Source: Rugalucina vietnamica
Taxonomy: Eukaryota; Mollusca; Bivalvia; Lucinida; Lucinidae
Length of the DNA: 64,000 nt
Assembly (NCBI GenBank): GCA_964017185.1
Contig: OZ024880.1
Location: forward strand, 46,203,071-46,267,070
Reading direction: 5' to 3'
Shown piece by piece: positions 40,419 to 62,559 of the stretch (the stretch's first letter is position 1; each line of letters begins with the position of its first letter). The notes under the pieces were generated by a model. It ran no database searches, was not told where the DNA came from, and was given only the letters and a program-made list of their open reading frames with translations. A program made the translations under genes and the position numbers.

Positions 40419-40465
40419 GTATACATTTCACAACTTATTAGGTTTGCTAGTCTACAGTCATATTA
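40419..40465 (+). pseudogene. Left remnant of the split Penelope-like RT copy
   Basis: About 47 bases (TATACATTTCACAACTTATT and following) match 50828-50875 in the uninterrupted RT copy. Similarity stops at 40419, so this copy was 5'-truncated there. It ends with TATTA, the flank shared with the right side of the long-TIR element. Confidence 0.65.
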
Positions 40466-40574
40466 GACATTTTTCACTTTTGAACGTAAATGTTGCTGGC
40501 GCGTGCGGTTACGATTTTCGGTGTGATGGGGGACGACCCGTGAGGGCATATTTGAGACGATGACGAGGGGTGAT

Positions 40575-41130
40575 ATATAGAGGATATTTGCTTTTTTGAG
40601 GTGAATACCAAATATATTTCATCGAGTGAGTTGAAAACATCAGAATTTTCACGAGTGCGCAGCACGAGTGAAAATTTTTATGTTTTCAACTCACGAGATG
40701 AAATATATTTGGTATTCACCGAAAAAAAGCAAATTTTCTTTTTATTTTATACAATACATGGACATTTTCCAATTCACAAGGCAGGCGGTGAAAATGCAAA
40801 AACCAAAAATTTTTGAAAACACAAATAATTTTGGTACCACATTGTTCCTTATGTTCTAATTAAGAAAATGAATACCCACACTTACTGTTTTCGTTCATAA
40901 ATAACGGAGTTATAGGCGTTTGAATTTCTGAAGTGAGACACATTTAATGACGTCAAGTAAATGGAAACGTCAGAAGTAATCCAAAATCTACAGTGAAGAT
41001 ATAGGCTGATATCAGTCACTAGTGACTTTTGATATCAGTGAGATTTGATATCAGTGAAATTTCATATCAATGAAAATACCAATTTTATCAAGTTTTGATA
41101 TACATTGGTTTTCACTGTAAGGTATAAAAT
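40575..41130. mobile_element. Hairpin-forming insert in arm of element 1
   Basis: About 550 bases absent from the same position in the other four arms. It contains a near-palindrome of about 150 bases (40590-40745, both sides carrying GAAATATATTTGGTATTCAC or its complement) and later GATATCAGTGA repeats near 41028-41065. Both parts abut TATTTTATAC-like sequence. Probably a MITE. Confidence 0.5.
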
Positions 41131-41209
41131 AAGAATAATTACTTGGTAAAAACTACCTATAGCCTAACGGAGACCAATTAAACAAGACAGGCAAAAAAGA
41201 AATAGGCTA

Positions 41210-41288
41210 CGACGTCTTACTCTGTAGCTCAGTAGGTAGCATGTATGGAATAAAACCAAAAGGTCCTGGGTTCGAGTCCGGCTAGGAC
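41210..41288 (+). other. tRNA-like module in left arm of element 1
   Basis: TGTAGCTCAGTAGGTAGCAT (box A) and GGTTCGAGTCC (box B) are spaced as in a tRNA, but the acceptor stem does not pair correctly next to the D arm. It is better read as a tRNA-derived pol III promoter relic than a tRNA gene. Confidence 0.6.
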
Positions 41289-41626
41289 AAAAATTCTTTT
41301 TCTATTCTTAATTGCTTCCTTTTTTTTTCGCATCTGTGACAATATAGCTTAGAAAATGAAAAAGAAATGAAAAGAATAAAAATGCAAAACTCACAAAATG
41401 CACTACTGCATTTAATACTAAAATCGTTAATAGTGTGTAGTGAGAAGGCAGTCCGCACGTATAGGTTTTTCACTAAGTCTTGTTGTCTTTTCACCGATTT
41501 AAGCCGGTAGCTTGATCGTAATCGGCAGAAGAGCGGACCCGCGACCAATCCTCACGTCAACATTTATTTTCTGAAGGCTGGTACAGATAATGCGGCTAGG
41601 ATAAGTTGACCGCCTCTAATGACTTA

Positions 41627-41853
41627 GCGGCCCCCGTGGCCGAGCGGTTGAGAGCGCTGTTTCTTAATCAATCGTTCATCTCACCGCTGTGTCTTGTGTG
41701 TGTTCGAGCCCACACTGGCCACATATGATACAAGCCAAGTTCAACTTGCGGGAGTGCCAGGTGGTTTTTCTATGGGGGTGCTCACGTTTTCACCCCACCT
41801 ACTGATTGGTGAGCTGAAATAATCTTGAAAGGGACGTAAAACTGAACTAAAAT
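41627..41853 (+). mobile_element. tRNA-headed SINE, copy in element 1
   Basis: GCGGCCCCCGTGGCCGAGCG starts a Leu/Ser-like tRNA head; the body and GGGACGTAAAACTGAA tail follow. It sits in the left arm at almost the same place as the SINE in element 2, so the insertion probably predates their split. Confidence 0.75.
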
Positions 41854-43262
41854 GCGCAAGACAATAAATCAAATAGTATAGTGTACATGTTCAGATACAT
41901 GTATATCTGTGTTTATTAGATGTAAAACTACACTTTCACGTGCTGTCTCGTGAGCGAACATAATTCATTCTGTTTATATTTCAAACAGACTATCAGCTTG
42001 ATGTCGAAGTTTCGCTCATTCGACAGTCATCTGCATGCCATACGAAGTGCGATGGAGGCAACATCCTACATGTAGCTATTTTTCGCCAAGCCACACAACT
42101 AATTTTGTTTATTGTAGACCTTCAACAGTAATTCAGCCATATCCAGTGTGCTGGTTACGATGTAGTAAATTAATTTGGCAAGACATGTTTTCTTTTTGGT
42201 CCATATTTTTTCTGTGTGATATTGTACGCGTGTTGTTTACCTGGTTGAATTCAAATAAATATGATTACAATAAAACTAAAACAATATTATTTTTATGAGT
42301 TGCTAAAGTGTTTCCATAAAGCACTCCATGTCGTAGTGGTTCAGTCAGTCGCCTCGTAAAACGGGCCGCGCGTTCAATCCAACGCGTAACTCCGTCTTTC
42401 GGTCGAGACCAGGGTCCAGTATGTAAATAGTTGTTATTTGCACGTGAGACACCGAATATTCCTCGTTATATGGTTTACATTAAACATGCGTGCATGATGG
42501 AATGTAAATGCATTTTTTTTCTTATAGGCGCGAGTAACATCGGAGAAGTTTTGCTATCTGTTAAAATCTAATCAGGGCCCAGAATTACACTACGCCCACC
42601 TTAGTGAGGATGTGAGATTCCAGGTCATTCTATTAATTACAGATAAGAGTCTGATTGTGCTCATTTCAGATCATAATTTCGTTTTTATACAATTTTCGCC
42701 CCGTTCAAGATTATTTTAGTCATATGAGACGGATAAATCAGTAACAAGGTGGGGGGGGGGAGAACCCTGAGAAAACGACTTGGCACACCCACAAGCAGAA
42801 TTTGGTTTGTGTCACCTGTGATTGTAAGACTGATCAATTGGGCAGCAACCTACGACGAAGTGTTCATTGTCTTGGTGATGGTTGTTGCCAAAGCGATATT
42901 GCTTTTTTTCAATTACTCCATTTTATCACATGTTGTGTGATGTTGCATCAATCTTTGCTGTAAGGACTTTTGTTGTATCGCAGGCATTTACAATGTTGCT
43001 TATACTGATAGACAATTCCTGAATATACATATTCATGCACAGTATATCACGCAGACATTTTACGTGCTCAATTTACCGGCTTTTTATATGTAAACAAACG
43101 AAACGACATTCGTGAACCTAATATTGTGCTGTGTTTGGCTGTTGAAATTTTGTCCCACGGCCCCTCGAAAAAAAACAAACAAACAAAAAACAAAAAAACA
43201 AAAAAAATAAAAAAATTATCAAGCAGGATCAGTTATCAAACCACATTGCTGCTTGACAAGCC

Positions 43263-43440
43263 GAAAACAGTTAGTGTTAACGGCATGTGTTCGTCCTTTT
43301 AAATCAGGGACCGCGGGTTTGATCCCGGGATCCTTAACTGTCGGATGATACTATAAACTGATGTCTCGTTTCCATATGACCTTTGCTGTTGGATTAACGT
43401 TAAACCTCAAATCAACAAACCAATTAAATTTATTATTTAC
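43263..43440 (+). mobile_element. Third tRNA-like SINE (element 1)
   Basis: Diverged counterpart of 55120-55295 with GCGGGTTTGATCCCGGG as box B and the same CTCGTTTCCATATGACC body. The head is poorly kept. Confidence 0.5.
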
Positions 43441-43785
43441 ATGTATGTAAATTCTGATTAAGAAGCTTATGTGCATTTATGCTCGCCCGATTCCGGACGC
43501 AAAAAATGCCCATATGAGTAAGATTAAGAATGATCAAGGTGTTGTACATGTAGCTCTGTTGTCAGCATGTGTAATACATGTGCACTAAAATGGTGCCGTG
43601 TATCTTGACGCTAGCATAACAAAACCTTAACAAGCAATATACAGTGTTTTTAAAGTTGTAAAAAATGAAAATTTTCAGTTCAACATTTTTATCTTTTTAT
43701 TTTGCTCAAAACATAGATTGTTGGTACACGCTAAAACTGCCTCGCAGAGGCAGTTCTAACGAGTTCTCACAATCTGTGTTTTTAG

Positions 43786-44563
43786 ATGCATGCGCATCCT
43801 AAGTTGACCTTGCCGTAAAATAGGTCAATATCATCCCTGGGTCATGATTTAGGCCATGTATAAACTTTGTAGATGCTTAATGCCAGGTTTCAAAATCATA
43901 GGCCTACTGGTTCTGAAGAACATTTTAAAGGTTTTTGCAGTTTATAGCCATGGCGGCCATTTATACAATCTTTCGTTCCCTTTCCATGAAGTGTGGCTTT
44001 GATCGGCCATGCGGTTGCAGAGATGTTTGAATATTTTGGTCATATGCATGTATATAGCCCCCGGGCAGGAGCAGACACACCCCTGGGGACTAAATGTTTT
44101 CATGGACATAAATCTTCAGTACCTTTGCATGCTCATCGCGAACAAATTACATTTAACTTATTTTCCCCATTTAAATGCATGGGCGACCTAAGTTGACCCT
44201 GCCATAAAATAGGTCAAGGTCATCCCAGCATTATGATGTATACCACCTTTGTAGAACTCTATTGCCTGATGCTTCAAACTTAGTTTCAAAATCACAGGAC
44301 TTCTGCTTCTGGGAAGAAATTGTTTTACAGGTTTTTGCTATTTATAGCTATGGCGGCCATCTTAGTCATGTGACCTAGGTCATTTATGCAAACTTTCGTT
44401 CCCCCTTCCTAAGAATGCTCCGCAAGCAGTTTAACTTGGGTTTGCCATTTGGTTTCAGAAGAGAATATCATGGAAATTGTTGACGGACGACGTCGGACGG
44501 ACGACGGGGGCATGGTCATCCTATAAGCTCGCATTTTGAGCCGAAGGGCTCATGTGAGCTTAA
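43786..44563 (+). repeat. GGCCGCCAT-type repeat nested in MITE B (element 1)
   Basis: Starts CCTAAGTTGACCTTGCCGTA and ends GAGCCGAAGGGCTCATGTGA. It contains TGGCGGCCAT and GTCATGTGACC motifs and interrupts a MITE B copy, whose halves lie at about 43600-43785 and 44564-44645. The same family forms 45786-47210, 55624-56366 and 59892-61945. Confidence 0.65.
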
Positions 44564-45450
44564 AATAGGTATACCCATGCATACCAAAGTTTTGCTGTAT
44601 AAAAGTGTGGTTCATGGGGTATTCAGGGACACGTTATCCTGATATGGATAACCGACCATGCTCGAGATGACTTGAAATATGTCAAAACGTTGTAAGGCGT
44701 AGAATAAAAAACTGCACATAAAATTAAAGATCAACTTATGTTTCAAATCGTAAATCATGCCATGTATACATGTATAAAGTTTTCTGTGCGTCCACGAAAA
44801 CACGTGAAAATGTAGCTTAGCAGAACCAATGTACGTATATACATAAGCCAGTATGTAAAATGTCACATGGCGATAACAAATAGTTGATATTGGTTTTTCC
44901 CACCAACAGTTATGGCCATATGGAGCCGGGACCTCGGTTTATCGAACGAGCGACGCCTAGTTATACACACGAGTGTCTAAAATAATCGAATTCTGCATTG
45001 GAAGCTGTTAAAATGGAGGCATTTTCTTCGCGCCAAGCATTTGTAAATCCGACTCGTATTGAACGAGTAACGCATCTTTAATGGCAAACATGATAAGTGA
45101 TATATATATGATGCGATTTTAGCAAATATTTCGTGTCAAAGGTCACTTCTTGTTCCTTGTTCCATCAGAATTAGACAGTTTAACGGAAAGACAACAATTT
45201 TCATTTGTAGGCGTTTCGTTCTCTCGCTCAACCTGCGAAACGAGTCAAATGTCCTTATTAAAATCATTTTGTACCTGTCTTATATCAACTACGTATTTAT
45301 TTTTGCCATGTGCTGATGTGATTTTAAGAGGCGACTGACTGAGCCACTGCGAGACAAAGTCCTCTGCGGAACGTGTTTGCGTGAGTGTGTGTTTATGAGT
45401 TAGAGTGTGTATGCGCGCTTAAAAGTCAGAATATTGTTGTCCTGTTTTAG

Positions 45451-45667
45451 GGTTAAGCAAGGTTCGCAGCACGTTTGATCAGCTGGCTAACCTGCACACC
45501 GATACACTTCGTGACCGCGCTCCTTTTCTGTGTATGGAGAGGTCTAACAGAATACCGATGGAAATATTCCGTCTAGCAACACGTAATGAAAACCAGAGGA
45601 CCAATGGTCCTGTAAACGCTCTACGGGGGTCCGGACCCCCCCCCCCGGAATCTGAAAAGTTTACCTA
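45451..45667 (+). other. Exon-like open segment inside element 1
   Basis: A TGTTTTAG acceptor-like site is followed by an open frame of about 70 codons (LSKVRSTFDQLANLHTDTLR, then FLCMERSNRIPMEIF, ending in a G/C-run insert). The segment recurs in inverted element 3 (61970-62135) with the frame open but several amino-acid changes. I do not recognise the protein. It may be a captured host exon, a relic of the element's own gene, or chance. Confidence 0.35.
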
Positions 45668-45785
45668 AACAGGGTAATTTTGGGATTTTTGGGGGGTTGG
45701 ACCCCCCCCCCCCCTCGTCTGCGACAATATTTTACCATTTTGGTTGGACCCCCTCTCGTAAAAATGTCTGGATCCGCAAATTAAG
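45620..45785. mobile_element. Relative of the G-run insert
   Basis: Contains GGGGGTCCGGACCCC, then CGTCTGCGACAATATTTTAC, ending GTCTGGATCCGC. It is the reverse of the insert at 61290-61466, with less clear ends. Confidence 0.45.
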
Positions 45786-47210
45786 GTCTTCCAAGGGTCA
45801 TCATTTTATCAAATTATGTTGGGCTGGAGTCATCGATGCTACATACCGATTTTCGTGAAAATCGGCCTGCCGGCTCTGGTGAAGAAGATTTTTGAGTGGT
45901 TTTAGCCATATATGGGCGTGGCGGCCATCTTGGTAATGTAACCCAGATTTCACAAACAAACTTTCGTCCCCCCTACCCATAGATGCTCCACATAAAATTT
46001 CAATTTGATTGGCCAAGCGGTTTCAGAGGTGAAGATTTATTTTTATATTCAGTTTAACGTCTCTTTCAAGATAATTTCAGCTCATATGAAACGGGCCAAT
46101 CAGTAGGTGGGGCGAAAACGGCAGAACCCCGAGAAAAACCACCTGGCACACCCGCAAGCAGAACTTGGCTTGTCTCACATGTGGCCAGTGCGGGGCGCGA
46201 TCCTACACCAGAGATAGCGGTGAGATGATCGAGTGATTAAGAAACAGCGTTCTCAACCGCTCGACCACGGGGGCCGCCATGAAGATGTTTTAAAAGTGTG
46301 TATGAACAACAGACTGGTCAAGGTCAAGAGATGACCTTGAACTAAATTAATTACATACTTACATCTACTCCATTAGTTGTCTGCATCTGCCTTTTTTCAG
46401 GTCTCGAATCGTTTTCGAAAAATCCATAGTTTTCACTTTTTCCCATGTAACAGCCTGTTTCCAAAATTAAGCTTGCCGTAAAACAGGTCAAGGTCATCCC
46501 AGGGCCATCATTTTATCAAACTATAATGGGCTGGAGTCACTGATGGCGGCCATCTTTGTCATGTGACTCGGATTTCATGATCAAACTTTCGTTCCCCCTA
46601 CCCATGGATGCTCCACATAAAATTTCAACTTGATTGGCAAAGCGGTTTCAGAGATGAAGATGTATGAAAAGTGTGTATGGAAAACAGACTGGCCAATTTC
46701 AAGAGATGACCTTGACCTAATTTAATCACATAATTTTATCTACTCCATTAGTTGTCTGCATCTACCTCTTTTCAGGTCTCTGGCTGCAATCGTTTAAAAA
46801 AAAATCAATAGTTTTCACTTTTTCCCATGTAAAAGCGTATGTTTCCAAAATTGACCTTGCCGTAAAATAGGTCATGGTCATCCCAGGGTCATCATTTTGC
46901 CAAACTTTGATGGGCTGGAGTAACTGATGGTAAATACCGAGTTTCGTGGGAATCGGCCCGCCGGTTCTGGAGAAGAAGATTTTTGAGTGGTTTTTACCAT
47001 ATATGGGCGTGGCGGCCATATTGGTCATGTGACATGGATTTCGCGATCAAACTTGAAATGCCGCTACACAAGGAGGCTCCACTTAAAATTTCAACTTGAT
47101 TGGCCAAGTGGTTTCGGAGAAGAAGATTGTGGACGACGACCAAGACGGACGACGGATCATGGCCATCCTATAAGCTCTCCTTGTGAGCCTTCGGCTCAGG
47201 TGAGCTAAAA
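45786..47210 (+). repeat. GGCCGCCAT-type repeat block, tandem units, with SINE insert
   Basis: Three diverged units of about 430 bases share CGGTTTCAGAG, GGCGGCCAT and ACCTTGACC segments, and the block ends in the palindromic GAGCCTTCGGCTC before the right arm of element 1. A SINE splits it at 46040-46278. No protein is suggested. Confidence 0.6.
46040..46278 (-). mobile_element. tRNA-headed SINE
   Basis: Minus-strand copy with full head (GGCCCCCGTGGTCGAGCGGT read in reverse) and tail. TGAAGAT flanks both sides, a likely target duplication. Confidence 0.72.
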
Positions 47211-48089
47211 AAAGACTAGATGTTTCTTAGTTTTATTATCATTTATTTACTTGAAAATAACATTGCGTTAGTTTGAAGATTAATTATATTTATTTGAAGT
47301 CAACCAGACAAACAGCACGCATACTACAAAAGAATAAATGAGGATCATACAGAAAGCCTGTGGCTTGCAAAAATCATCTAAAATTCGTAATTATCGCACT
47401 CGATATGGCTAAAATACTGTTGAAGGCCTACAAAACCTCAAATTATTAGTATGGCTATATGCATAATGTAGTTAGGATATCGCCCTAATGACATGCAGAT
47501 GGGTGTTGTATGGGATCAAAACGAAACATCAACCAAATAAACCCCACCAAGCTTTCGAGTATCTGTTTGAAATACATGTATAAACATGCCAAATGAATTA
47601 TGTTCGCTCACGAGACAGCACGTGAAACTGTAGTTTTTACACCTTATATATATATATACATTTGTCTGTACAGGTACACTATACTATTTGAGTTAGTGCC
47701 TTACGTCCGCGGAAAACATTTAAAGTCATTCAGGGTGGCTAACTTATCCTAGCCACAATATTCCTGTACAAGCCTTCAGAATATGAACATTTTATGTCCC
47801 CAAGAAAGAAATATTGACATGAGGATCGCTCGAAGATCAGCTCTTCTACCAAAACAAATACGATCGAGCTGTCGATTTCAACAGGTTAAAAATCAACAAG
47901 AGAGAAACATTAATGTGAGGTGCCGTCTCGCACTTTAATTCCTTTACGATTTAAGTATTTTATGCACAAGGGCATTTCCTGATTCTTGCATTCGCCAATA
48001 AATATAATCAGCTGATAATACATTTTTTTTTATTTCCTTAGCTTCATAGTCACAGGGGAGACAAATAAAGAAAAGAAAAAAAAAAGCGG

Positions 48090-48168
48090 TCCGACCAGGA
48101 CTCGAACCCAGAACCTTTCGTTTTGAATCCTAGCTTGCTACCTACTGAGCTACAGAGATAGACGTCCT
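48090..48168 (-). other. tRNA-like module in right arm of element 1
   Basis: The inverted counterpart of the left-arm module, with box A CTGTAGCTCAGTAGGTAGC and box B GGTTCGAGTCC. It reads toward the element interior. The acceptor stem is not canonical. Confidence 0.58.
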
Positions 48169-48356
48169 ACACTATAACATTTATTGCATGTCTGATTTAA
48201 TTCGTCTCCGTTGGGCTGTTGGTAGTTTTGACTGTGTAATTCTTCATATTGCCCCTCGTCTTAGTCTCACATATGCCCTCACGAGTCGTCCTCCATCACA
48301 AAGAAAGTCGTAACCGCACGCACCAGCAGCATTTACGTTCAAAAGTGAAAAATGTC

Positions 48357-49175
48357 TATTACGGACTTCAACGCGCGAAATAAATGTTTAACGGCAAAAC
48401 TTTCCCAGCAGGGCTATCGGTATCATAAATCAAGGAAAATTAAATAAAAAATAAATAAATAAAAAAATAAATAAATAAGCACTTTCAAAATTTTATCGTA
48501 GACACTATGAATTGATTTCTAAATTTAATGTTGGTTTGAAGGCGCTTTTACGTGATCGGATTTCGTAACCAGAATTTTATGGTGACTTGGTTTACAAATT
48601 CGAAAAACTTATAGGCAGGAATGATTTTTCTTTTCAGTTCAGAAAACTAATTTTACGTTACAAACGTATAGGATATAACTTAAATGTTATGCGACAGTCT
48701 GCATGCTTAGTTTTTAAACCAATCATGGTTGATAACTATGATGCCTTCTTTAATTACACGCAGGTGGGTCGGGCGTCAGACTCTATGGTGACCCCGACTT
48801 AAAGCTATTCATTTTAGTTGGTTATGGCCGGAGCTTCTTGTCTGTTGCCTGGCCCACCCGGGTTCAACTGGTGTTTTTCTTTTGTTCCGGATTTTCAATA
48901 AGTTATTTGGCGCCCAGGGATCTCAATCGTCCGGCAGCTTACTCAGTCTGTGAGTCCTCATTGACTCATCATGGTGGTTATCATGATTTATTTGTTTGTC
49001 CTTTATAATTCATTGACTAGTTAGAGATTCGCCGCGAGGACCGAACAACAAACTAAATGTTGTGAACCGCTGCAGAAACTGGTGGTGAGCTTCTGGTCAT
49101 GTTAAATCGGTTTAAGCCCTCACAGTTATTTATAATCGACCGTTCTAAGGCGGTACTACTGTTGTGGTTTAAATA
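48357..49175 (+). pseudogene. Second Penelope-like RT copy, 3' part and 3' UTR start
   Basis: From 48362 the sequence resumes the RT text (DFNARNK, then the YELISK, GDLVYKF and VMRQSACLVF blocks) and continues into the same 3' UTR. It is the right half of a copy whose left edge is at about 40419-40465, split by the long-TIR element 40466-48356. It is broken at a few places and carries an AAAT-rich expansion near 48445-48478. Confidence 0.72.
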
Positions 49176-49179
49176 TATC

Positions 49180-49375
49180 CAATTTATTTCTTGTATTATG
49201 TAGGCAAACAGCACAAAAAATTCGACTCCAAAACATAAAACAAATAGAACCACAACAGACGTATCGCATTGGAACGATCATTCATCTAAAATTACTGGGG
49301 GAGGGGGTTAAACAGGTTTTACAGGACCCAAACCTCGCCCTCAGGTCCTACAGTGGTCCTTTTTTATAAACAAGA
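49180..49375 (-). repeat. Penelope-like 3' UTR fragment, inverted next to another
   Basis: Reads as the complement of the 3' UTR middle and lies head to head with the end of the 48802-49175 fragment, giving a local inverted repeat. Confidence 0.5.
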
Positions 49376-49989
49376 AGGAAAGAAAATCGTGTAAATAAAA
49401 TATCATACATTGGTACCAACTTGTACATGTATAAGTGAAAGCAGAGTGAGTAGCTATTCAAGGTAAGGTGGTCACAGTGCTAGCTTGGACAGAACAAGTA
49501 AATGCAGCGGGCTAAGTGAATAACCAACTTGAATTCGGGTGGTCGGGTGCGATGAATGGCTTTACTCAGACCCTTCAATTTGAGGGTGTTCATAATATAC
49601 TTGAAATAATTTTGGAATAATACCCAGGATGAATTTTGATAATAAAGACGGTCGTTTCCCAATAATTACCAGCGCCAATACGGAAACCACGGTCAATGAA
49701 AGACGTCGTCGAAGATAATATCAAACAAATGTCTCTTAAACCGACAGACCTTTGATGTGACGGACCCTGCAAGGCAGTCGAAGATAGTTCAGAGCCAAGA
49801 CGCATTAATGAGACGTCAGTTTTCGTGTTCTTCGAAACAAACATCCATGCTTCCTCACTACAGACGATGTGACTTTTTATTGGACACTCTCGGTTACTTG
49901 CTTTCTATCTAAAGCTGAAGATAAAATGGAAAATACAACAAAGCAAAGATCCATCTAAAAACGGAAATTGGCGAGGTTACACATGAGGC
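49376..49989. other. No gene seen
   Basis: Unique sequence before duplication block B. Short frames on the minus strand are not recognised. Confidence 0.45.
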
Positions 49990-50434
49990 TTTTTCTCTCG
50001 CATAAAGACATGGTGAATTCGAAATTCGTGAAATGTGGCAAGGGTTTGTTTGTACCACGATGAAATCTTTAAAATCACGCCAATTCCATATTAGGGAATT
50101 TCGAGGAATTTGATTCAATGCGTGTTTAACATACTTTTTCTAGTACTTAAGTCGGACGTTTGCACTGAACGAACTTTAAAACAAGATATAAAATGCATGT
50201 CAACAAATAGGCCAAAGATTTGTTTTCGTTATCTTCCAAAAGGTATAAAATATAGACCTGCTATTTACATAAGATGCTCATTTCCGCATTGTTCAAACTT
50301 GCACTTATGAAACTCGTCATCTAAAGGCGTCTAGTACTGACCCCTGAACTTGACATAGTAAACATCAAATAAATTCTAGGGTTGTGTAATATGTTTCGGA
50401 AAAGAATATTACGCACTGGGAAGTTCATCAGGTA

Positions 50435-51277
50435 TTGGCAAATTATAAACTGATACAGCATTTCCGTTGCGTACAGAAAATATGTTTATTTTTATACTGC
50501 TACGAAAGAGATTTCATGGATTCTCTTAACCATGATAATCAAGCTGATGTTATCGAGGCTTTTAATTCCACATCTAGGTACCTCGATGACCTTTTGAACA
50601 TTGACAACCCTTATTTTGAAGGTATGGTCAATCAAATTTATCCACCTGAACTTCAGTTGAACAAAGCCAATATCTCAGATACTGAAGCCCCCTTTTTAGA
50701 TCTACATCTTTCTGTTGCAAATGGATTCGTTTCTTTTAAAATTTATGATAAGCGCGATGACTTTGATTTTGATATAGTAAATTTTCCTTTTTTGGATGGT
50801 GACGTTCCTCGTCGTGCTTCTTATGGTGTATACATTTCGCAACTTATTAGGTTTGCTAGAGTCTGCAATCATGTTACAGACTTCAACGCTCGAAATAAAT
50901 GTTTAACGGCAAAACTTCTCCAACAGGGCTATCGGTATCATAAACTTCGAAAAACATTTTCTAAATTTTATCGTAGACACTATGAATTGATTTCCAAATA
51001 TAATGTTGGGTTAAAGACGCTTTTAAGTGAGGGCCTTTCGGAACCTGAATTTTATGGTGACTTGGTTTACAAATTTAAGAAACTTAAAGGAATTAATGAT
51101 TTTTCTTTTCAGTTCAGAAAAATCATAACACGTTACAGACATATAGGTTATAACTTAAATGTTATGCGACAGTCTGCATGCTTAGTTTTTAACCCAATCA
51201 TGGTTGATAACTATGCTGCCTTCTTTAATTGCACGCCGGTGGGTCGGGCGTCAGACTCTATGATGGCCCCGACATAA
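50435..51277 (+). CDS. Reverse transcriptase C-terminal fragment (Penelope-like)
   Basis: An open frame of 280 codons; the first about 17 come from flanking DNA, so the annotated Met is accidental. The element part shows LFLYCYERDFM, SRYLDDLLNI (catalytic YxDD), EAPFLDLHL, KIYDKRDDFDF, YGVYISQLIR and KLLQQGYRYHKLRK, and ends SDSMMAPT. The order YxDD, then PFLDL, then a Y-K pair, then a YISQLIR helix follows Penelope-like RTs. I recognise the family from similar proteins common in invertebrate genomes; the subgroup is uncertain. No GIY-YIG domain is seen downstream. Confidence 0.75.
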   Translation: MANYKLIQHFRCVQKICLFLYCYERDFMDSLNHDNQADVIEAFNSTSRYLDDLLNIDNPYFEGMVNQIYPPELQLNKANISDTEAPFLDLHLSVANGFVSFKIYDKRDDFDFDIVNFPFLDGDVPRRASYGVYISQLIRFARVCNHVTDFNARNKCLTAKLLQQGYRYHKLRKTFSKFYRRHYELISKYNVGLKTLLSEGLSEPEFYGDLVYKFKKLKGINDFSFQFRKIITRYRHIGYNLNVMRQSACLVFNPIMVDNYAAFFNCTPVGRASDSMMAPT

Positions 51278-51900
51278 AGCTATTCATTTTAGTTGGTTGG
51301 GGCCGGAGCTTCTTGTCTGTTGCTTGGCCCACCGGGGTCCAACTGATGTTTTTCTTTTGCTCCGGAGTTAGTACGTTATTCGGCGCCCAGGGATCTCCAT
51401 CGTCGGGCAGCTTACTCAGTCTGTGAGTCCTGGTTTTTTATCCATCAGGATGTTTATCATGATTTATTTGTTTGTTCTTGATGATTCATTGACTAGTTAG
51501 AGATTCACCACGAGGACCGAATAACTAACTAAATGTTATGAACCACTGCAGAAGCTGAGGGTGAGGTTATGGCCATGTAAAACCGGTTTAAGCCCGCCAG
51601 TAACTTTGTGTTACTGATCGTTCCAAGTCGATACTTCTGTGGTGGCTTTTTTGTTTTATGTCTTGGTGTTTAAAAAAAAAAATTTGTGCTGTTGGCGCCT
51701 TATGTATGTTTTCATATTTTTAGTTAAGTTAAGGTAACTGAGTGGCCACCTATTGGTAAAATAGCTGCTCATTCGGCTTACGATATGTTTCATGGTATAA
51801 GTACCTGATTGTTAGTTTGGTTTTTTCCCACCTCGGTTTTTGGAGTGGGAATCTTTTTCTGATTGCGCCTTTTCCTGATCTTTGCCTACTTGTACCTTTT
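50486..51900 (+). mobile_element. Penelope-like retroelement, 5'-truncated, with intact 3' UTR
   Basis: Both ends are fixed by comparison with the related sequence at 34600-34650: there ATATGTTTTATC is continuous, here it is split by this insert. The insert has the last about 264 RT codons (stop at 51277) and a 620-base 3' UTR ending CCTACTTGTACCTTTT. Copies of the same 3' UTR are scattered through the window. The 5' truncation falls inside the RT, as happens in target-primed insertions. Confidence 0.72.
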
Positions 51901-52454
51901 TATCAAAAAATGTGTTTGCATTTTGCACGAACTCAGGAAAGCCTGTGGCCGATAAGATAAAATAAATGGTCAAATGATCGGACAGGAAACCTATTTACAC
52001 GTTTTGCTTACTCATAACAGTGTCGAATAATTTGTTCCTAAGTATCTCGATTAAAGCAAGCCTGTAGACCAGCGGTATGGATCTAAACTGGTAATAAAGG
52101 TCATCGTCTGTATATACACCTGCAAAAGGTTATCAGCAGACACCACTGGCAGGAAATTTGTTAAAAGCATCTACCACATTACAGGAAAAGATAGTAGTGT
52201 GGCCAAGAAAATATGTACGCTGTCACCTAACTTGCTTCCATAACCCATTTAGTGAACTGGTATTAGACATTTTTCACTTTTGAACGTAAAGTTTGCTGGC
52301 GCTTGCGGTTACGACTTTGTGTGTGATGGGCGACGACTCGTGAGGGCATATTTGGGACGAAGGCGTGGGGCGATATGAAGAATTACTTAGTCAAAACTAC
52401 CAACAGCCCACCGGAGGTGTATAAAATGAGACACGCTAAAAACGAATTGTCCAG

Positions 52455-52535
52455 GACGCCTAGCTGAATAGTTCAGTAGGTAGAGTTTAAGACATTGAAT
52501 CGAAAGGTCCTGTGTTCGAGTCCGGGTAGGACAAA
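52455..52535 (+). other. tRNA-like module in left arm of element 2
   Basis: Box A TAGTTCAGTAGGTAGAG and box B GTGTTCGAGTCCGG are kept. It lies at the same distance from the element end as in element 1 once the 550-bp insert there is removed. Confidence 0.55.
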
Positions 52536-52922
52536 AAAATATTTTTCCTTTTCTTTGTTTCTTCCTTTTTTCGCACCTGTGACGATAAAGCTTAGAAAAT
52601 TAAAAAGAAATGAAAAAAAGGAAAAAAAGAAAATGATATTTTATCTATTGGCAAATGCAAGAATCACAAAATTCACTGCTGCATTTAATACTAAATCGTA
52701 AGTTTCTGGACTAAACTGTCTAGTGAGAAGGCAGACCGCATGTATAGGTTTTTTATAGGTCTTGATTTTTCACCCATTGAAGCCGAGAACTCGATCGTCA
52801 TTTTCGACAGAAGAACGGATCAGCGACCGATCCTAACGTCAACATTTATTTCCTGACTGGCTGGTACAGATAATGTGGATAGGATAAGCTGACCGCCTCT
52901 AATGACTAAAAAAATTACGCAA

Positions 52923-53156
52923 GCGTCCCCCGTGGCCGAGCAGTTAAGAGCGCTGTTTCATAATCACTTAATCATCTCACCGTTGTGTCTGGTGTGAGTT
53001 CGAGACCCACAATGGCCACATGTGAGACAGGCCAAGTTCTGCTTGCGGGTGTGCCAGGCGGTTTTTCTCGGGGTACTCCCGTTTTCGCCCCACCTACTGT
53101 TTGGTGCTTTTCATATGAGCTGAAATAATCTTGAAAGGGATGTAAAACTGAATTTT
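52923..53156 (+). mobile_element. tRNA-headed SINE, copy in element 2
   Basis: Head TGGCCGAGCAGTTAAGAG (box A) and GTGTGAGTTCGAGACC (box B region), then a conserved body with CAGGCGGTTTTTCTCGGGG and GCCCCACCTACTG and the tail CTTGAAAGGGATGTAAAACT. This is the common SINE family of the window. Confidence 0.75.
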
Positions 53157-53812
53157 AACAAATACACAAGACACCAAATCAAACAGTATAGTGTACATGT
53201 TCATATACTCGTATATGTGTATAGATGTAAAACTACAGTTTCACGTGCTATCTCGTGAGCGAACAATGTTTATTTTTTCGATGTGTCGTTTTGAGTCCAT
53301 TCGACAGTAGGAAGAGCGATGGGGGCAATACCCTACATGTAGCTACAATATGCCTAGCCACACAACTGTTTTTGTCTATTGTAGACTTTCAACAGTATTT
53401 CTGCCATATCGAGTGCGATGGTTACGATGTAGAAAATTAATTTGGCAAGACATAAGCTTTCGTTCTGATCCTCATTTATTCTGTGTGATAGTATGCGTGC
53501 TGTTTCACCTAGTTGAATTCAAATAAATAAATTAAAATCAAACTAACACAATTATATTATTTTTATGAGTTTCTTAAGTGTTTCCGAAGAGGACGCATAG
53601 TGTTTCAGTCGCCCCGTAAAGCGGGTCGCGCGTCACTTCGCCGCAGTTTACTTTTGATGTTCGCCATTTTCACATACACGTAGAAGCAATTTTGGACACT
53701 ACATATTCTGTCAAAGTGCACAAATTATTCATTTGTTTCACAAATAATGGTGTATACTGTCTTCACATTGACACATGTGTTTTCCTAAGAATATTGCCTC
53801 GTGTATTGTCCT

Positions 53813-53858
<46 letters not shown>

Positions 53859-53862
<4 letters not shown>

Positions 53863-53996
53863 CAGTTTTACGTCCCTTTCAAGCCTTTTCACTCATATCG
53901 AGACGAATCAAACAGAAAGTGGGGCGAAAACCGGAGTACCCGGGGAAAAAACCACCTGACACACCCGCAAGCAGAACTTGGCTCGTCCCACATGTG

Positions 53997-54031
<35 letters not shown>

Positions 54032-54257
54032 ATTCAGTTTTACGTCCCTTTCAAGCTTTTTCACTCATATCGAGACGAATCAATCGGTAGGTGGGGCGAA
54101 AACCGGAGTATCCGGGGAAAAACCACCTGACACACCCGCAAGCAGAACTTGGCTCGTCCCACATGTGAATTCTGTCCCGTGCGAGGCGCGAACCAACAGC
54201 GGTGAGATGATCAAATGATCAAGAGCACTGAAGTCAGCGACCTTAACGGGGGCCGCC
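53859..54257 (-). mobile_element. Two SINE copies in tandem separated by a T tract
   Basis: 53859-53999 is a headless copy and 54031-54257 a nearly complete one, both minus. Each begins after a long T run (53815-53858 and 54000-54030). One SINE probably inserted in the tail of the other, or the region was duplicated. Confidence 0.65.
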
Positions 54258-55119
54258 TATTGTCCCTTTTAACAGACTAGACGCTGGTCTTGTTTGAAAA
54301 GAGCTAGTAATTTTGTTTTTTATGCGTGTTGTTAAATTGCTTGTGATGTGTGGGACCGCCATGTCTCTCCCGCCTGTTGTCTATGTTAGGATGGGAAATT
54401 TAATTGTATAGATTCTTGGTCATTCTATTGTTACTTGATTACAGATAAGGGTCTGATTGTGCTCATTTCTGATCATAATGATGCGGGTTTTTTAAGATTA
54501 TTTTAGTTCATATGAGACGGGTAAATCAGTAACAGGGGGGAAAGGGGAGAACCCTGAGAAAACGAACTTGCACACCCACAAGCAGAACTTGGTTTGTGTC
54601 ACCCGTGATTGTAAGACTGATCAATTGGGCAGCAAGGCTACGGCGAAGAATTCATTGTCTTGGTGTTGGTAGTTGCCAAAGCGATATTGCTGCGCTGAAG
54701 GTTGTTTTAATCCATTTTATCACATGTTGTGTGATGTTGCATCAATCTTTGTTGTAAGGACTTTGATTGTATCGCAAGCATACACGATGGTGCTGACACT
54801 GATAGACAATACCCGAATACACATATTCATATACATGTACAGTATACTACGCAGACATTTCACGTGTCCATTTACCGACCTTTTATATGTAAACAAACGA
54901 ACCGCCATTCATGATTCTAATATATATACATGTAACAGGGCAACATTTTGTCCTAGGGCCCATCGACAAAACAAAGATCATATCAAGCCGGATCCGTTAT
55001 CAAACCACATTGCTGCTTGGCAAGCCGAACGCAGTTGATGTTAAGGGCATGCGTTCTTTTGTCCTTTTTTAACATTTAAAAGTACGATTTCTATCATGAT
55101 AAAGTTTATACTGAACCTA

Positions 55120-55295
55120 TTAAGCAAGCCTCCATGGTGCAGTGGTTATTTCACGTGCCTTATAAACCAGAGATCGCAGGTTTGATCCGGGTCTTCTTGC
55201 GTCTGTCGGATGAGACTATAAACTGAGGTCTCGTTTCCATATGACCTTTGCTGTTGGATTAACGCCCAAATCAACAATCCGATTCAATTTATTAT
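55120..55295 (+). mobile_element. Third tRNA-like SINE (element 2)
   Basis: TGGTGCAGTGGTTATTTCAC (box A) and GCAGGTTTGATCCGGG (box B), followed by CTCGTTTCCATATGACC and an AATTTATTATTT end. A diverged counterpart sits at 43263-43440 in element 1. Confidence 0.55.
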
Positions 55296-55623
55296 TTATT
55301 TAAATTCAGATTGAGTAAGAAGCTTATGTGCTTATATATGCTTGCCCGATTCCGGACGCAAAGATGGGCCCTAATGAGTAAGGTTAAGAATGATCAAATG
55401 TTGTAGATCTGTCGTCAACATGTGTAATACATGTGCACTAAAACGGTACCCTGTATCATGACGATATCATTACAAAACCTTAACAAGCAAAACACACTGT
55501 GTTTTTTAAGTTGAAAAAAAAAATGAAACTTTTCAGTTCAACAGTTTTGATATTTTCTTATTTGTTCAAAACATAGATTGTGGACACATGATAGAACGAA
55601 TACTCACAATCTATGTTTTCAGA

Positions 55624-56366
55624 AGCATAGGCAACCTAAGTTGACCTTGTCCTATAATAGGTTAATGTCATCCCTGGGTCATATATAGACTATGTAGATG
55701 CTTCATGCCAAGTTTCAAAATCATAGGCCTACTGGTTCTGAAAAAGAACACTTAAAGGTTTTTCAATTCATAGCCATGGCGGCCATTTTGGTCAAGTTAC
55801 CTTGACCATTAATACAAACTTTCGTTCCCCTTCCACGAAGTTTGGCTTTGATCGGCCATGCGGTTGCAGAGAAGATGTTTAAATATTATAGTCATATACA
55901 TGTATATATCCCCCAGGCAGGAGCAGACAACCACCTGGGTCTTAATGTTTTCACAAAAATAAATCTGTCCATTTGTATTATCATAGCAAGTTTTCACCCA
56001 TTTAATTACATTTAACTTATTTCCCCATTTAAATGCATGGGTGACATACATGTAAGTTGATCTTACCGATCTTTGTAGTGCGTTTAATATTGTTTGATGC
56101 TTCATGCCAAGTTACAAAATCATAGGCCTTCTGGTTCTGGAGAAGAAAAATTTTAACGGTTTTTGCTATTTATAGCCAAGGCGGCCATCTTGGTCATGTG
56201 ACCTGGTCCATTTATGCAAATTTCGTTTCCCCTTCCTAAGAATGCTCCGCAAACAGTTTTAACTTTGATTGGCCAAGCTGTTTCAGAGAAGAAGATCATG
56301 GAAATTGTTGACAGGGGCATTGCCATCCTATAAGCTCACCTTTTGAGCCGAAGGGCTCATGTGAGC
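55624..56366 (+). repeat. GGCCGCCAT-type repeat nested in MITE B (element 2)
   Basis: Same repeat, same insertion point in MITE B as at 43786-44563, so the nesting predates the split of elements 1 and 2. MITE B pieces lie at about 55480-55623 and 56367-56455. Confidence 0.62.
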
Positions 56367-57224
56367 TAAAACTAGGTATACCCTGCATACTCAAGTTTTG
56401 CTTTATAAAAGCGTTGTTCAATGGGGTAAACATGTCACGGACATGTTATCCTGATGAGGATAACAGACCATGCTCGATATTACTTGAAATGTGTCAAAAC
56501 GTTGTAAGGCGTAGAATAAAAAGAACTACACATAAAATTAAAGATCAACTAAATGTTTCAAATCGTAAATCTTGCCATGTTTACATGTAAAAAAAGTTTC
56601 TGTGTGTTCACGAAAAACACGTGAAATGTAGCTTAACAGAACCAATGTACGTATATACATGCACCAGTATGTTAAAAGTCACATGGAGATAACAAATAGT
56701 TGATAGTTGTTTTCCCACCAACAGTTATCGTCATTTGCAGACGGGATCTCGGTTTATAGTGTAACCATAAAGCCATGGGCAGCTCAGAATTGAACTAGCA
56801 ATCCCTAGTTATACACACGAGTGTCTAAAAAAATAATATTCTGCACTGGAAGCTGTTTTATTCGCGCCAAGCATTTATAAGACCGACTCGCATTGAACGC
56901 GTAATGTATCTTGAATGGCAAACATGACGGTTGATGGTGCGATTTTGTAAACATGTCGTGTCAAAGGCCACTTCTGGTTCATTGTTCCATTAAATCAGAC
57001 AGTTAAACGGGAAGACAACAATAATCATTGTTACCATTGCATATGATAACATTGTTTACGATTTATATGTTTAATTGGATTTCTTTATTTTTGCATTTTA
57101 CCAATGCATTTTGGTTTTAAGTTTGTTTTTTTTTCTGCGAAAAAAAAAATCCAATAAAAATAGGCGTTTCCTACTCGCGCTTAACCTCCTGAGCTAACGA
57201 GTCAGATGCTCTTATCAAAATCAT

Positions 57225-57418
57225 TTTTATTAAGGCTTTATGTCCCAGTCAACATTTTTTTCAGTCATGACGGGACGGAGCCAACGCTTCCTGGGTTTAA
57301 CCAGTTAGTAAGGCGTGAATATGTCTTGCTCAAGGACACAACACGGTGGCGCCTATGGAGATCGAAGGACCTCTCGATTCGGAGTCAGACGCCCTAACAC
57401 TACGCCACCGTGCTCCCT
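57225..57418 (-). mobile_element. Second SINE family in element 2
   Basis: On the minus strand it starts GGGAGCACGGTGGCGTAGTG with a tRNA-like head, then TGTCCTTGAGCAAGACATAT. The flanks are AAAATCATTTT and AAAATAATTTT. Element 1 has the uninterrupted site at about 45265-45285. Confidence 0.68.
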
Positions 57419-57547
57419 AAAATAATTTTGTACCAGTCTTATATCAACTACATGTACGTATTTATTCTCGACATGTGATTTTACGAAGCGACTGGCTGAA
57501 CCACTGCGATATGAAGTAATCTCGGAACGTGCGTGCGTGCGTGCGTG

Positions 57548-57548
57548 A

Positions 57549-57592
<44 letters not shown>
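57548..57592 (+). repeat. (GT)n microsatellite
   Basis: Follows GCGT units at 57530-57545; about 21 GT units, inside element 2. Confidence 0.9.
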
Positions 57593-57593
<1 letters not shown>

Positions 57594-58504
57594 CATGTAA
57601 AGAATATTGTCATCCTGTTTTAGGGTTAAGCAAGGTACGCGGCACGTTATGAAAAAACGAACTGTATGTTTCTTAGTCTATAAGCATTCATTTTCTTGAA
57701 AATGATATTGTTTTAGTTTGAAGTTTAATTATAAATATTTATTTGAATTCAACCAGATAAACATCACGCATAATTCAAGAGAATAAATGAGGATCAGAAA
57801 GAAAGCCGTTGACTTGGAAAAAAAAAAACATCCAAAAATCGTAATTATCGCATTCAAAATGCTGAAATACTGTGGAAGGTCTACAAAACCTCAACTTATT
57901 TGTATGGCTATGCAAATTGTAGCTAGGATATCGCACTTATCGTCTAATGGACTCAAAACGAAACATCAACCAAATAAATAACATCAAGATATCGAGTATT
58001 TGTTTGAAATACATGTATAAACATGCCAAAATAAATTATGTCCTCTCACGAGACAGAACGTGGAACTGTAGGTCTTACACCTAATAAATATACATACATC
58101 TTTACATTTACACTATACAGTGTACTATCTATACAGTGTACTATTTGAGTTAGTGCCTACGTCCGCGGAAAACATTCAGTTTAAGTCGTTCAGGGTGGCT
58201 AACTTATCCTAGCCACATTATGCCTGTACAAGCCTTCAGTATATTCATATTTTCATGTCACCCAGAAAGAAATATTGACGATCAGATAGATCAGCTCTTA
58301 TACCAAAAATACGGTCAAGCTCCCAATACAAGAGAAAACATACATGTAGGCTGCCGTCTCAAACTTCAATTCCTTTACGATTTAAGAATTTAATGTAGTA
58401 GGGCATTTCATGATTCTTGTATTTGCCAAAAAATATAATCAGCTGATAATATATGTTTTATTTGCAAAGCTTTTTTGTCACAAGAGACTAATAAAGAAAA
58501 GAAA

Positions 58505-58590
58505 AAAAGTGATCGGTCCGGGACTCGAACCCAGGACCCTTCGCTTTCAACTCCAAGAACGCTACCTACTGAGCTACACAGCTACACGTC
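58505..58590 (-). other. tRNA-like module in right arm of element 2
   Basis: Reads inward on the minus strand with TGTAGCTCAGTAGGTAGC and GGTTCGAGTCC. Same degenerate stems as its relatives. Confidence 0.55.
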
Positions 58591-58974
58591 CTGACTATTT
58601 CACTTTTTTGACTCTCTTATTTAATTCGTCTTCGTCGGGCTATTGGTAGTTTTGACTAAGTAATTCTTCATATCGTCCCTCGTCTTCGTCTCAAATATGC
58701 CTTCACGAGTCGTCCCCCATCACACGGAAAGTCATAACCGCAAGCGCCAGCAGCATTTACGTTCAAAAGTGAAAAATGTCTATTAGACATTTTTCACTTT
58801 TGAACGTAAATGCTGCTGGTGCGTGCGGTTACGACTTTCTGTATGATGGGGGACGACTCGTGAGGGCATATGTGAGACTAAGACGAGGGGCAATATGAAG
58901 AATTACACAGTCAAAACTACCAACAGCCCAACGAAGACGAATTAAATACGACATGCAATAAATGTTATAGTGTA

Positions 58975-59058
58975 GGACGTCTAGCTCTGTAGCTCAGTAG
59001 CTAGCGTGCTGGGATTCAAAACGAAATGTTCTAGGTTCGAGTCCTGGTCGAAACGCTT
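58975..59058 (+). other. tRNA-like module in arm of element 3
   Basis: CTGTAGCTCAGTAGCTAGCG and GGTTCGAGTCCTGG are present, with a T-arm stem that pairs (CTAGG with CCTGG). The acceptor ends do not pair, so it is not a functional tRNA gene. Confidence 0.55.
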
Positions 59059-60790
59059 TTTTTCTTTTCTTTATTTGTCTCCCCTATGACAATAAAGCTA
59101 AGGAAATAAAAAAAAATGTATTATCAGCTGATTATATTTATTGGCGTATGCAAGAATCAGAAAATGCCATTGTGCATAAAATACTTAAATCGTAAAGGAA
59201 TTGACTGAGTGCGAGACGGCACCTCAAAATGTTTCTCTCTTGTTGACTTTTAAACCTATTGAAATCGACAGCTCGATCGTATTTTTTTGGTAGAAAAGCT
59301 GATCTTCGAGCGATCCTCACGTCAATATTTCTTTCTTGGGGACATAAAAATGTTCATATTCTGAAGGCTTGTACAGGAATAATGCGGCTAGGATAAGAAT
59401 GACTTTAAATGTTTTCCGCGATAGTATAGTGTACCTGTACAGACATATGTATATTTATAAGGTGTAAAAACTACAGTTTCACGTGCTGTCTCGTGAGCGA
59501 ACATAATTCATTTGGCATGTTTAGACATTTATTTCAAACAGATACTCGAAAGCTTGGTGGGGTTTATTTGGTTGATGTTTTGTTTTGATCCCATTCAACA
59601 GCCATCTGCATGTCATAAGTGCGATATCCTAACTACATTATGCATAGCCATACTATTAATTCGAGGTTTTGTAGACCTTCAACAGTATCTCAGCCATATC
59701 GAGTGCGATAATTACGAATTTTAGATGATTTTTACAAGCCACAGGCTTGTATGATCCTCATTTATTCTCTTGTAGTATGCGTGCTGTTTGTCTGGTTGAC
59801 CTCAAATAAATATAATTAATCTTCAAACTAACACAATGTTATTTTCAAGGAAATAAATGATTATAAATCTGAGAAACATCTAGTCTTTTTTTAACTCACC
59901 TGAGCCGAAGGCTCACAAGGAGAGCTTATAGGATGGCCATGATCCGTCGTCCGTTGTCCGTCTTCGTCGTCGTCCACAATTTCAAAGATCTTCTTCTCTG
60001 AAACCACTTGGCCAATCCTGTTGAAATTTTATGTGGAGCCTCCTTGTGTAGCGGCATTTCAAGTTTGATCGCGAAATCTATGTCACATGACCAAGATGGC
60101 CGCCACGCCCATATATGGTGAAAACCACTCAAAAATCTTCTTCTCCAGAACCGGCAGCCGATTTCCAAGAAACTTGGTATTTACCATCAGAGACTCTAGT
60201 CCATCAAAGTTTGACAACATGATGACCCTGGGATGACCTTGACCTATTTTACGGCAAGGTCAATTTTGGAAACATAGGCTTTTACATGGTAAAAAGTGAA
60301 AACTTTGGATTTTTTGAAAACGATTGCGGCCAGAGACCTGAAAAGATGTAGATGCAGACAACTAATGGAGTAGATGAAGGCATGTGATTAAATTAGGTCA
60401 AGGTCATCTCTTGACTTTGGCCAGTCTGTTTTCCATACACACTTTTCAAACATCTTCATCTCTGAAACCGCTTGGCTAATCAAGTTGAAATTTTATGTGG
60501 AGCATTAAGTTTGATCATGAAATCCGAGTCACATGACAAAGATGGCCGCCATGCCCAACTATGGTAAAAACCACTCAAAAAATGTTCTTCTCCAGAACCG
60601 GCAGGCCGATTTCCACGAAACTTGGTATGTAAGCATTAGTGCCTCCAGCCCATTATAGTTTGATAAAATGATGACCCTTGGGTGACCTTGACCTATTTTA
60701 CGGCAATGTCAAATTTGGAAAAAGCCTGTTACATGGGTAAAAGTGAAAACTATGGATTTTTCGAAAACGATTGCAGCCTGATATCTTCAT

Positions 60791-61030
60791 GGCGGCCCCC
60801 GTGGTCGAGCGGTTGAGAGCGCTGTTTCTTAATCACTCGATCATCTCACCGATGTGTCTGGTGTAGGATCGCGCCCCGCACTGGCCACATGTGAGACAAG
60901 CCAAGTTCTGGTTGCGGGTGTGCCAGGTGGTTTTTCTCGGGGTTCTCCCGTTTTCGCCCCACTTACTGATTGTCCCGTTTCATATGAGCTGAAATAATCT
61001 TGAACGGGACGTTAAACTGAATATAAAAAA
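60791..61030 (+). mobile_element. tRNA-headed SINE
   Basis: Full-length copy starting GGCGGCCCCCGTGGTCGAGC. It is flanked by ATCTTCAT on both sides and inserted in the GGCCGCCAT-type repeat of element 3. Confidence 0.75.
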
Positions 61031-61289
61031 AATCTTCATCTCTGAAACCGCTTGGCCAATCAAAGTGAAATTTTATGTGGAGCATCTATGTGTAGGGGGA
61101 ACGAAAGTTTGTTTGTAAAATCTGGGAAACATGACCAAGATGGCCGCCACGCCCATGTATGGCTAAAACAACTCAAAAATCTTCTTCTCCAGAACCGGCA
61201 GGCCGATCTTCACGAAGATCGGTATGTAGCATCGATGACTCCAGTCCATCATAATTTGATAAAATAATGACTCTTGGATGACCTTCATG

Positions 61290-61466
61290 CGCGGATCCAG
61301 ACATTTTTACGAGAGGGGGTCCAACCAAAATGGTAAAATATTGTCGCAGACGAGGGTGCTCCAACCCCCCATAAAATCCCACAATTACCTTTTTAGGTAA
61401 AATTTTCAGATTCCGGGGGGGGGGGGGTCCGGACCCCCGGTCCGCTCCTCTGGATCTGCGCATGAC
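61290..61466. mobile_element. Small insert with inverted ends and a long G run
   Basis: The ends CATGCGCGGATCCAGA and TCTGGATCTGCGCATG are near-perfect inverted copies. The flanks repeat ACCTT, or ATGACCTT if the ends are trimmed, as a target duplication. A G run of about 14 is followed by TCCGGACCCCC. A related inverted copy lies at about 45620-45785. Confidence 0.55.
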
Positions 61467-61969
61467 CTTGACCCATTTTACGGCAAGGTCAATTTTGGAA
61501 GCAGAGGCTTTTACATGGGGAAAAAGTGAAAACTATGAATTTTTTTAAAAATGATTGCAGCCTGAGACCTAAAAAGTGGTAGATGCAGATAACTAATGGA
61601 GTGGATGAAGGAATGTGATTAATTTAGGTCAAGGTCATCTCTTGACCTTGGCCAGTCTGTTGTCCATAGCATCTTCATCTCTGAAACCGCTGGGCCAATC
61701 ACAGAGAAATTACATGTGGAGCATCCATGGGTAGGGGGAACGAAAATTCCGTATATGGTAAAAACCACTCAAATATCTTCTTCTCCAGAACCGGCAGGCT
61801 GATTTTCACGAAACTTGGTATGTAGCATCGATGACTTCAGCCCATCTTAGGTTGATAAAATGATGACCCTGGGATGACCTTGACCTATTTAGCGGCAAGG
61901 TCAATTTTGGAAACTTAGGCTTTTACATGGGGAAAAAGTGACAACTAGGTCTCCGGCGAGCGTTTACAA

Positions 61970-62135
61970 GACCATTGGTCCTCCGGTTTTCATTACGTGC
62001 TGCTAGACGGAATATTTCCATCGGTATTCTGTTAGACCTCTCCATACACAGAAAAGGAGCGAGGTCACGAAGTGTATCGGGGTGCAGGTTAGCCAGCTGA
62101 TCAAACGTGCTGCGAACCTTGCTTAACCCTAAAAC
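61970..62135 (-). other. Exon-like open segment inside element 3
   Basis: Counterpart of 45451-45667 on the minus strand, preceded by the same TTTTAGG acceptor-like site and still open over about 55 codons. Most differences from element 1 change the amino acid, which argues against strong recent protein constraint. Confidence 0.35.
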
Positions 62136-62559
62136 AGGACAACAATATTCTGAATTTTAAGCACGCATACACACTCTAACTCACAAACACACACTCACGC
62201 AAACACGTTCCGTAGAGGACTTTGTCTCGCAGTGGCTCAGTCAGTCGCCTCTTAAAATCAGATGGCGAGAATAAATACGTATAGGTTGATATAAGACAGG
62301 TTCAAAATGAGTTTAATAAGATTATTTGACTCGTTTCGCAGGTTGAGCGCGAGAACGAAACGCCTAAAAATGAAAATTGTTGTCTTTCCGTTAAACTGTC
62401 TAATTCTGATGGAACAAGGAACCAGAAGTGACCTTTGACACGAAATATTTTCAAAAATCGCATCATATATATATCACTTATCATGTTTGCCATTAAAGAT
62501 GCGTTACTCGTTCAATGCGAGTCGGTTTTACAAATGCTTAAAAATTTCCTAAGTATTAC

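Follow-up and report, generated by a model that had tools for sequence, protein, structure and literature searches.

A probable family of large non-autonomous DNA transposons with 5-bp TANTA target duplications in the bivalve Rugalucina vietnamica

Organization of the locus

We analyzed a 64,000-nucleotide window (the whole stretch examined here, positions 46,203,071 to 46,267,070 of contig OZ024880.1) of the lucinid bivalve Rugalucina vietnamica, in which three related large elements, designated E1, E2 and E3, lie between positions 40466 and 62539. Relatives were sought in the assembly, which comprises 1.09 Gb in 47 contigs. E1 (40466..48356, plus strand) is a complete element whose 7891 bp include the foreign repeat carried in its left arm; it was recognized by its ends, by its relation to E2 and E3 and by its full-length relatives L040 and L041. 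E2 (52266..58780, plus strand), also delimited by its ends, is a complete element of 6515 bp that is ~97% identical to a young copy, L097. An identical 25-mer, GACATTTTTCACTTTTGAACGTAAA, matched the window five times (40466 plus, 48356 minus, 52266 plus, 58780 minus and 58786 plus) and was absent from each of 100 shuffles. TATTA adjoined every one of these five ends: as the left (40461..40465) and right (48357..48361) target duplications of E1, as the left target duplication of E2 (52261..52265), and as a single copy common to E2 and E3 at an end-to-end junction (58781..58785).

The initial annotation of this region had described three elements with common outer ends, arms and internal order. 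For E1 and E2 this was borne out: their arms and interiors are collinear, the main BLAST blocks are ~75% identical, and an alignment of 5598 columns gives 80.5% identity. E3 (58786..62539, minus strand) has one end only and is an inverted match to E1 positions 45035-48361; this single end, together with a match limited to the right half of E1, ruled out a complete element, and E3 is a partial copy. A tandem repeat of ~188 bp (62526-64000) begins where E3 breaks off and continues past the window edge.

Termini, target duplication and copy number

A genome-wide pattern search for TANTA joined to the exact 25-mer detected 1203 ends (600 + 603), and the reversed-pattern control detected none. The arms thus recur throughout the genome. 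Arm searches yielded 1834 and 1663 first-look candidates, and the best 40 of each were 95-100% identical over their main matches. We read 50 ends, which were the best-scoring matches to E1-right or E2-left queries, so that their uniformity is partly selected; the exact 25-mer was present in 48, and the adjoining 5-mer was TANTA in 44 (TATTA 24, TAATA 16, TACTA 3 and TAGTA 1). TATTA flanks, proposed from this locus, were therefore found at all five window ends but do not characterize the family as a whole, in which the middle base varies. Both ends were present in the complete copies L040, L041, L070 and L097. When the first 100 ends listed, all on contig C1, were combined into plus/minus pairs less than 20 kb apart, 31 pairs were obtained, with lengths of 4726-13924 bp (median 7421 bp). 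The 5-bp flanks were equal in 23 of these pairs (11.6 expected by chance; 0 of 100000 permutations). The target duplication is fixed at 5 bp, TANTA, with a variable middle base that is common to both flanks.

A counterpart of the E1 site lacking the insertion was found in the same window. This related retroelement copy (50826..51230, plus strand) contains TGTTA once, and the joined flanks of E1 aligned with it gap-free across the join, with a 2-bp gap nearby. E1 therefore inserted into a copy of a reverse-transcriptase-like sequence and duplicated 5 bp. An open frame of 295 aa overlaps this region (50390-51277, plus strand); it had no Pfam match, and we take it to resemble a Penelope-like reverse transcriptase. 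An Rfam SECIS_1 match (51252-51319, plus strand; 37.4 bits versus a gathering threshold of 35) lies over the end of this frame.

Two apparent departures from the E1 and E2 types were also examined. L066 was considered as a third lineage and rejected, as the longer stretch L070 proved to be an E2-type copy with nested insertions. The GTAAC-ended variant L096 has an arm of the E2-right type; the other 3.5 kb read is unlike E1 or E2 and has no long frame.

Young copies and coding capacity

Over the first 1100 bp, 20 E2-left arms showed a median pairwise identity of 98.4%, reaching 99.9% between contigs, and 30 E1-right arms a median of 95.2%, with 99.5% for the best pair. The near-identity of some copies on different contigs indicates that the family was recently active. 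The young copy L097 (6339 bp) is flanked by TAATA on both sides and is ~97% identical to E2, except that it has a single copy of a 172-bp stretch tandemly duplicated in E2.

The longest frames in L097, L041 and L040 were 103, 132 and 152 aa, respectively, and shuffled E2 sequences gave a mean of 107 and a maximum of 221 aa. No long frame was located within the element in L039-L042 or L097. A Pfam scan of 10 of the 16 stop-free frames of at least 70 aa in L041 gave no match, and among eight window frames the sole real match was RVT_1, outside the elements. A mismatch periodicity test, whose control was weak, detected no coding signal. Since no frame in L097, L041 or L040 exceeds what shuffled E2 gives, the mobile unit is non-coding, at least in the copies read. 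The earlier suggestion that the elements could be non-autonomous agrees with these full-length copies devoid of long frames and with the absence of Pfam matches above the cut-off in the frames scanned.

Conserved parts of the arms

Inverted arms of ~1.1 kb, as first described, are present, but they are not close inverted repeats: left and right arms are ~66-72% identical, with full identity only in the outer 25 bp and good conservation of the outer ~135 bp. Conservation was measured across four arm types, one representative each. All four agreed throughout the outer 25 bp, and four-way identity was 83/110 in columns 26-135, compared with a background of 194/374 (52%) up to position 640. The tRNA-like module noted earlier in each arm was confirmed and placed ~205-260 bp inside the arms, where an A-box-like stretch was identical in 14 of 15 columns and a B-box-like stretch in 18 of 21 (binomial 0.0008 and 0.0013, uncorrected for the choice of these stretches by their match to the box consensus). 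In the window, these tRNA-promoter-like motifs occupy 41225..41279 (plus strand; B ~44 bp from A) and 48098..48152 (minus strand) in the left and right arms of E1, and 52469..52523 (plus strand; an A-box-like motif with a one-mismatch B-box-like motif) and 58521..58576 (minus strand) in those of E2. Where both boxes are strict they are 44-45 bp apart, and they face inward, upstream of a T-run. Only three strict A+B pairs occur in the 64 kb, all in element arms. These boxes suggest possible inward transcription from the arms by RNA polymerase III. Against such a role, fewer than half of the 50 ends read carry both strict boxes, and ARAGORN named no tRNA in the window, nor did Rfam in the right arm of E2.

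Other repeats are nested in the elements. The foreign high-copy repeat in the left arm of E1 (40574..41127, limits approximate) was represented, in its first 228 bp, at 98-100% identity in the best 40 of 3400 candidate places. A tRNA-headed repeat resembling a short interspersed nuclear element was found at 41627-41852, 46041-46277, 52923-53158, 53834-54257 and 60792-61031, and E1 and E2 each carry it at a matching position of the left arm.

End-to-end arrays

The single TATTA between E2 and E3 is not an isolated case. With the E2/E3 junction as query, the best 40 of 1645 candidates all spanned an end-to-end junction; this query was right-right, and the sample leans to right ends. Spacers were read at 27 junctions, 26 of which consisted of a single TANTA. 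Approximately 0.13 such junctions would be expected by chance, given one TANTA per 201 bp and ~600 copies. Arms were typed at seven junctions, four of which join the two lineages and three of which join E2-type ends (L066 taken as E2-type). The palindromic E2/E3 junction itself (58734-58822) scored like a microRNA hairpin in Rfam (mir-335, 41.1 bits, below the gathering threshold of 64), an effect of the inverted ends.

Flanks were unequal in all three elements located inside single-TANTA arrays, two of which are assumed from spacing to be single elements between junctions; among the 30 remaining pairs, the flanks differed in 7 (p 0.02). Counting a pair with a 16-bp spacer as an array gives 4/4 and p 0.005, and we prefer the strict figure. 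Such unequal flanks are not predicted by simple insertion into the duplication of a neighbor. Re-mobilization of joined pairs would explain them, and three cases are not decisive.

Search for a mobilizing partner

The three longest C1 copies (13.3-13.9 kb) were considered as candidate autonomous elements and rejected, as the 9 kb read of each contained E1- or E2-type interiors along with other DNA. This extra DNA comprised a frame that looks like Gypsy, a 7.7-kb stretch in which no long frame occurs, and another stretch of ~2.4 kb. The 7.7-kb stretch (positions 323-8046 of L073, C1:12053900-12062899) lies in an E2-type copy and possibly belongs to another large non-coding mobile family.

Two looser patterns were also used. 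A search for families with only the outer 12 bp in common returned one chance-like match, and a search for 25-mer ends divergent at positions 29-32 returned two, both one-base shifts. These two patterns hence revealed no looser relative that shares the extreme ends.

Interpretation and alternatives

The observed termini, 5-bp duplication, empty-site counterpart, number of ends, near-identical copies and non-coding copies read lead us to conclude, with a probability of about 90%, that these elements form a family of non-autonomous DNA transposons with terminal inverted repeats (TIRs), large in size (mostly 5-9 kb), high in copy number and recently active, which is presumably moved by a transposase encoded elsewhere. 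Such a transposase, presumably of the DDE type, acting in trans and by a cut-and-paste route, would recognize the near-invariant outer 25 bp, probably together with the conserved outer ~135 bp. Insertion at TANTA through a 5-bp staggered cut would leave the same TANTA on both sides of the copy. This transposase would serve both lineages, which are ~20-25% diverged inside and have identical ends. The inner part of each arm probably descends from a long, older inverted repeat that has since decayed, and copies often lie end to end with older ones.

Several observations weigh against this interpretation. No autonomous copy or transposase gene with the same ends was found among the portion of the ~600 copies that was read, and the young copies imply a source of transposase. 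Flanks were unequal in 8 of the 31 C1 pairs, the left flank of L041 is CAATA versus TAATA, and the spacer at one of the 27 junctions was 12 bp. Both strict boxes were present in just 24 of the 50 ends (A in 28, B in 44). In addition, the coding tests were partial, both in the number of L041 frames scanned and in the strength of the periodicity control.

We also considered whether the elements represent a new superfamily, defined by palindromic 5-bp TANTA targeting, non-coding mobile units of ~7 kb, a conserved tRNA-type promoter in each arm, and arrays formed by targeting of own ends or by mobility of joined pairs. We put this forward tentatively, as an unlikely possibility.

Somewhat more doubtful is an assignment to non-autonomous Mutator-like elements (MULEs), which would account for long inverted repeats, G-starting ends and many copies without a partner. 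The ends here begin with GA and finish with TC, as do those of Mu, and MULE genes with long open frames are present in the genome (59 matches). However, MULE duplications are usually 8-11 bp, compared with 5 bp here. None of the six C1 matches to MULE genes (four inside the listed range) lay between the ends of the 31 pairs, a comparison of low power. The 5-bp duplication falls inside the 4-10 bp range given for MuDR/IS256 in PMC10045372.

A non-autonomous hAT family of the group with 5-bp duplications is improbable. Genes for hAT transposases are present (116 matches, with 150 of 199 candidates scored), but none of the six C1 matches was located between the ends of the 31 pairs, again with low power. 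Groups of hAT elements with 5-6 bp duplications exist; the ends here are nevertheless unlike hAT ends.

The initial annotation had raised a relationship to a big-element class. One candidate of this kind is a Polinton/Maverick-like self-synthesizing element, of which these would be decayed copies that lost polymerase and integrase. Large size and arms of ~1.1 kb are in line with this proposal, and a 5-bp duplication is close to the 6-bp target duplication of Polintons/Mavericks. However, the remaining mismatch in duplication length, the sequence-specific 5-bp TANTA site and the GAC...GTC ends argue against it, as does the E1/E2-type content of the three longest C1 copies. No polymerase or integrase was recognized in the copies read, with no genome profile search aimed at them, and the sole long frame in a C1 copy looks, by eye, like a nested Gypsy-type insertion. 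We regard this origin as very improbable. A local, immobile inverted duplication of host DNA would fit E3, a partial copy that lies in inverted orientation next to E2 and not far from E1, but it is ruled out for practical purposes by the 1203 dispersed exact ends, the matching 5-bp duplications and the empty-site counterpart.

The family, which we interpret as non-autonomous TIR transposons, is ordinary in kind and unusual in its size, target and arrays. At ~600 copies of ~7.4 kb, it would amount to an estimated ~4.5 Mb, or 0.4% of the genome. A family that is large, young and devoid of genes implies a transposase that is active or was so very recently, and the exact 25-bp ends with their TANTA targets provide a handle for finding it. 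The tRNA-type boxes and the arrays raise questions about what keeps non-coding DNA transposons mobile and about the reason for their clustering.

Comparison with known systems

No described match to this family was recognized in the literature searched, without comparison to repeat databases, and it may already be catalogued. Duplications of TA, 3-bp TWA or TTAA are made by Mariner/Tc1, Harbinger, piggyBac and Kolobok elements, and the 5-bp TANTA does not fit any of them. With foldback transposons as a class, the elements share long inverted arms and the lack of an evident mobility gene. They differ from the foldback transposon Tetris (PMC4079207) in that their arms are ~70% alike and had no tandem-repeat structure identified. 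IS3EU and IS481EU were rejected, as PMC10045372 gives 6-bp duplications with TA..TA termini for the former (5 bp here, with both TA pairs inside the duplication) and duplications of ~4, 15 or 25 bp for the latter. Ginger2/TDD elements have TGTNR termini (PMC2836005), in contrast to GACAT here, and animal Ginger2 elements give duplications of 4 bp.

Mutator-like elements with long TIRs differ from the present family in their arms, as the boxes here are tRNA-promoter-like. They also differ in target duplication, ~9 bp versus 5-bp TANTA. Likenesses include long arms, said to hold transposase sites and promoters in those elements (PMC3310237), and the common occurrence of non-autonomous copies. 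Miniature inverted-repeat transposable elements differ in size (the median here is 7.4 kb on C1), and in the present family the inner arms are ~70% alike while the ends are identical, with no partner found. However, these elements and larger non-autonomous TIR derivatives share with it exact inverted ends, a duplication of fixed length, the absence of coding sequence, high copy number and the presence of young copies.

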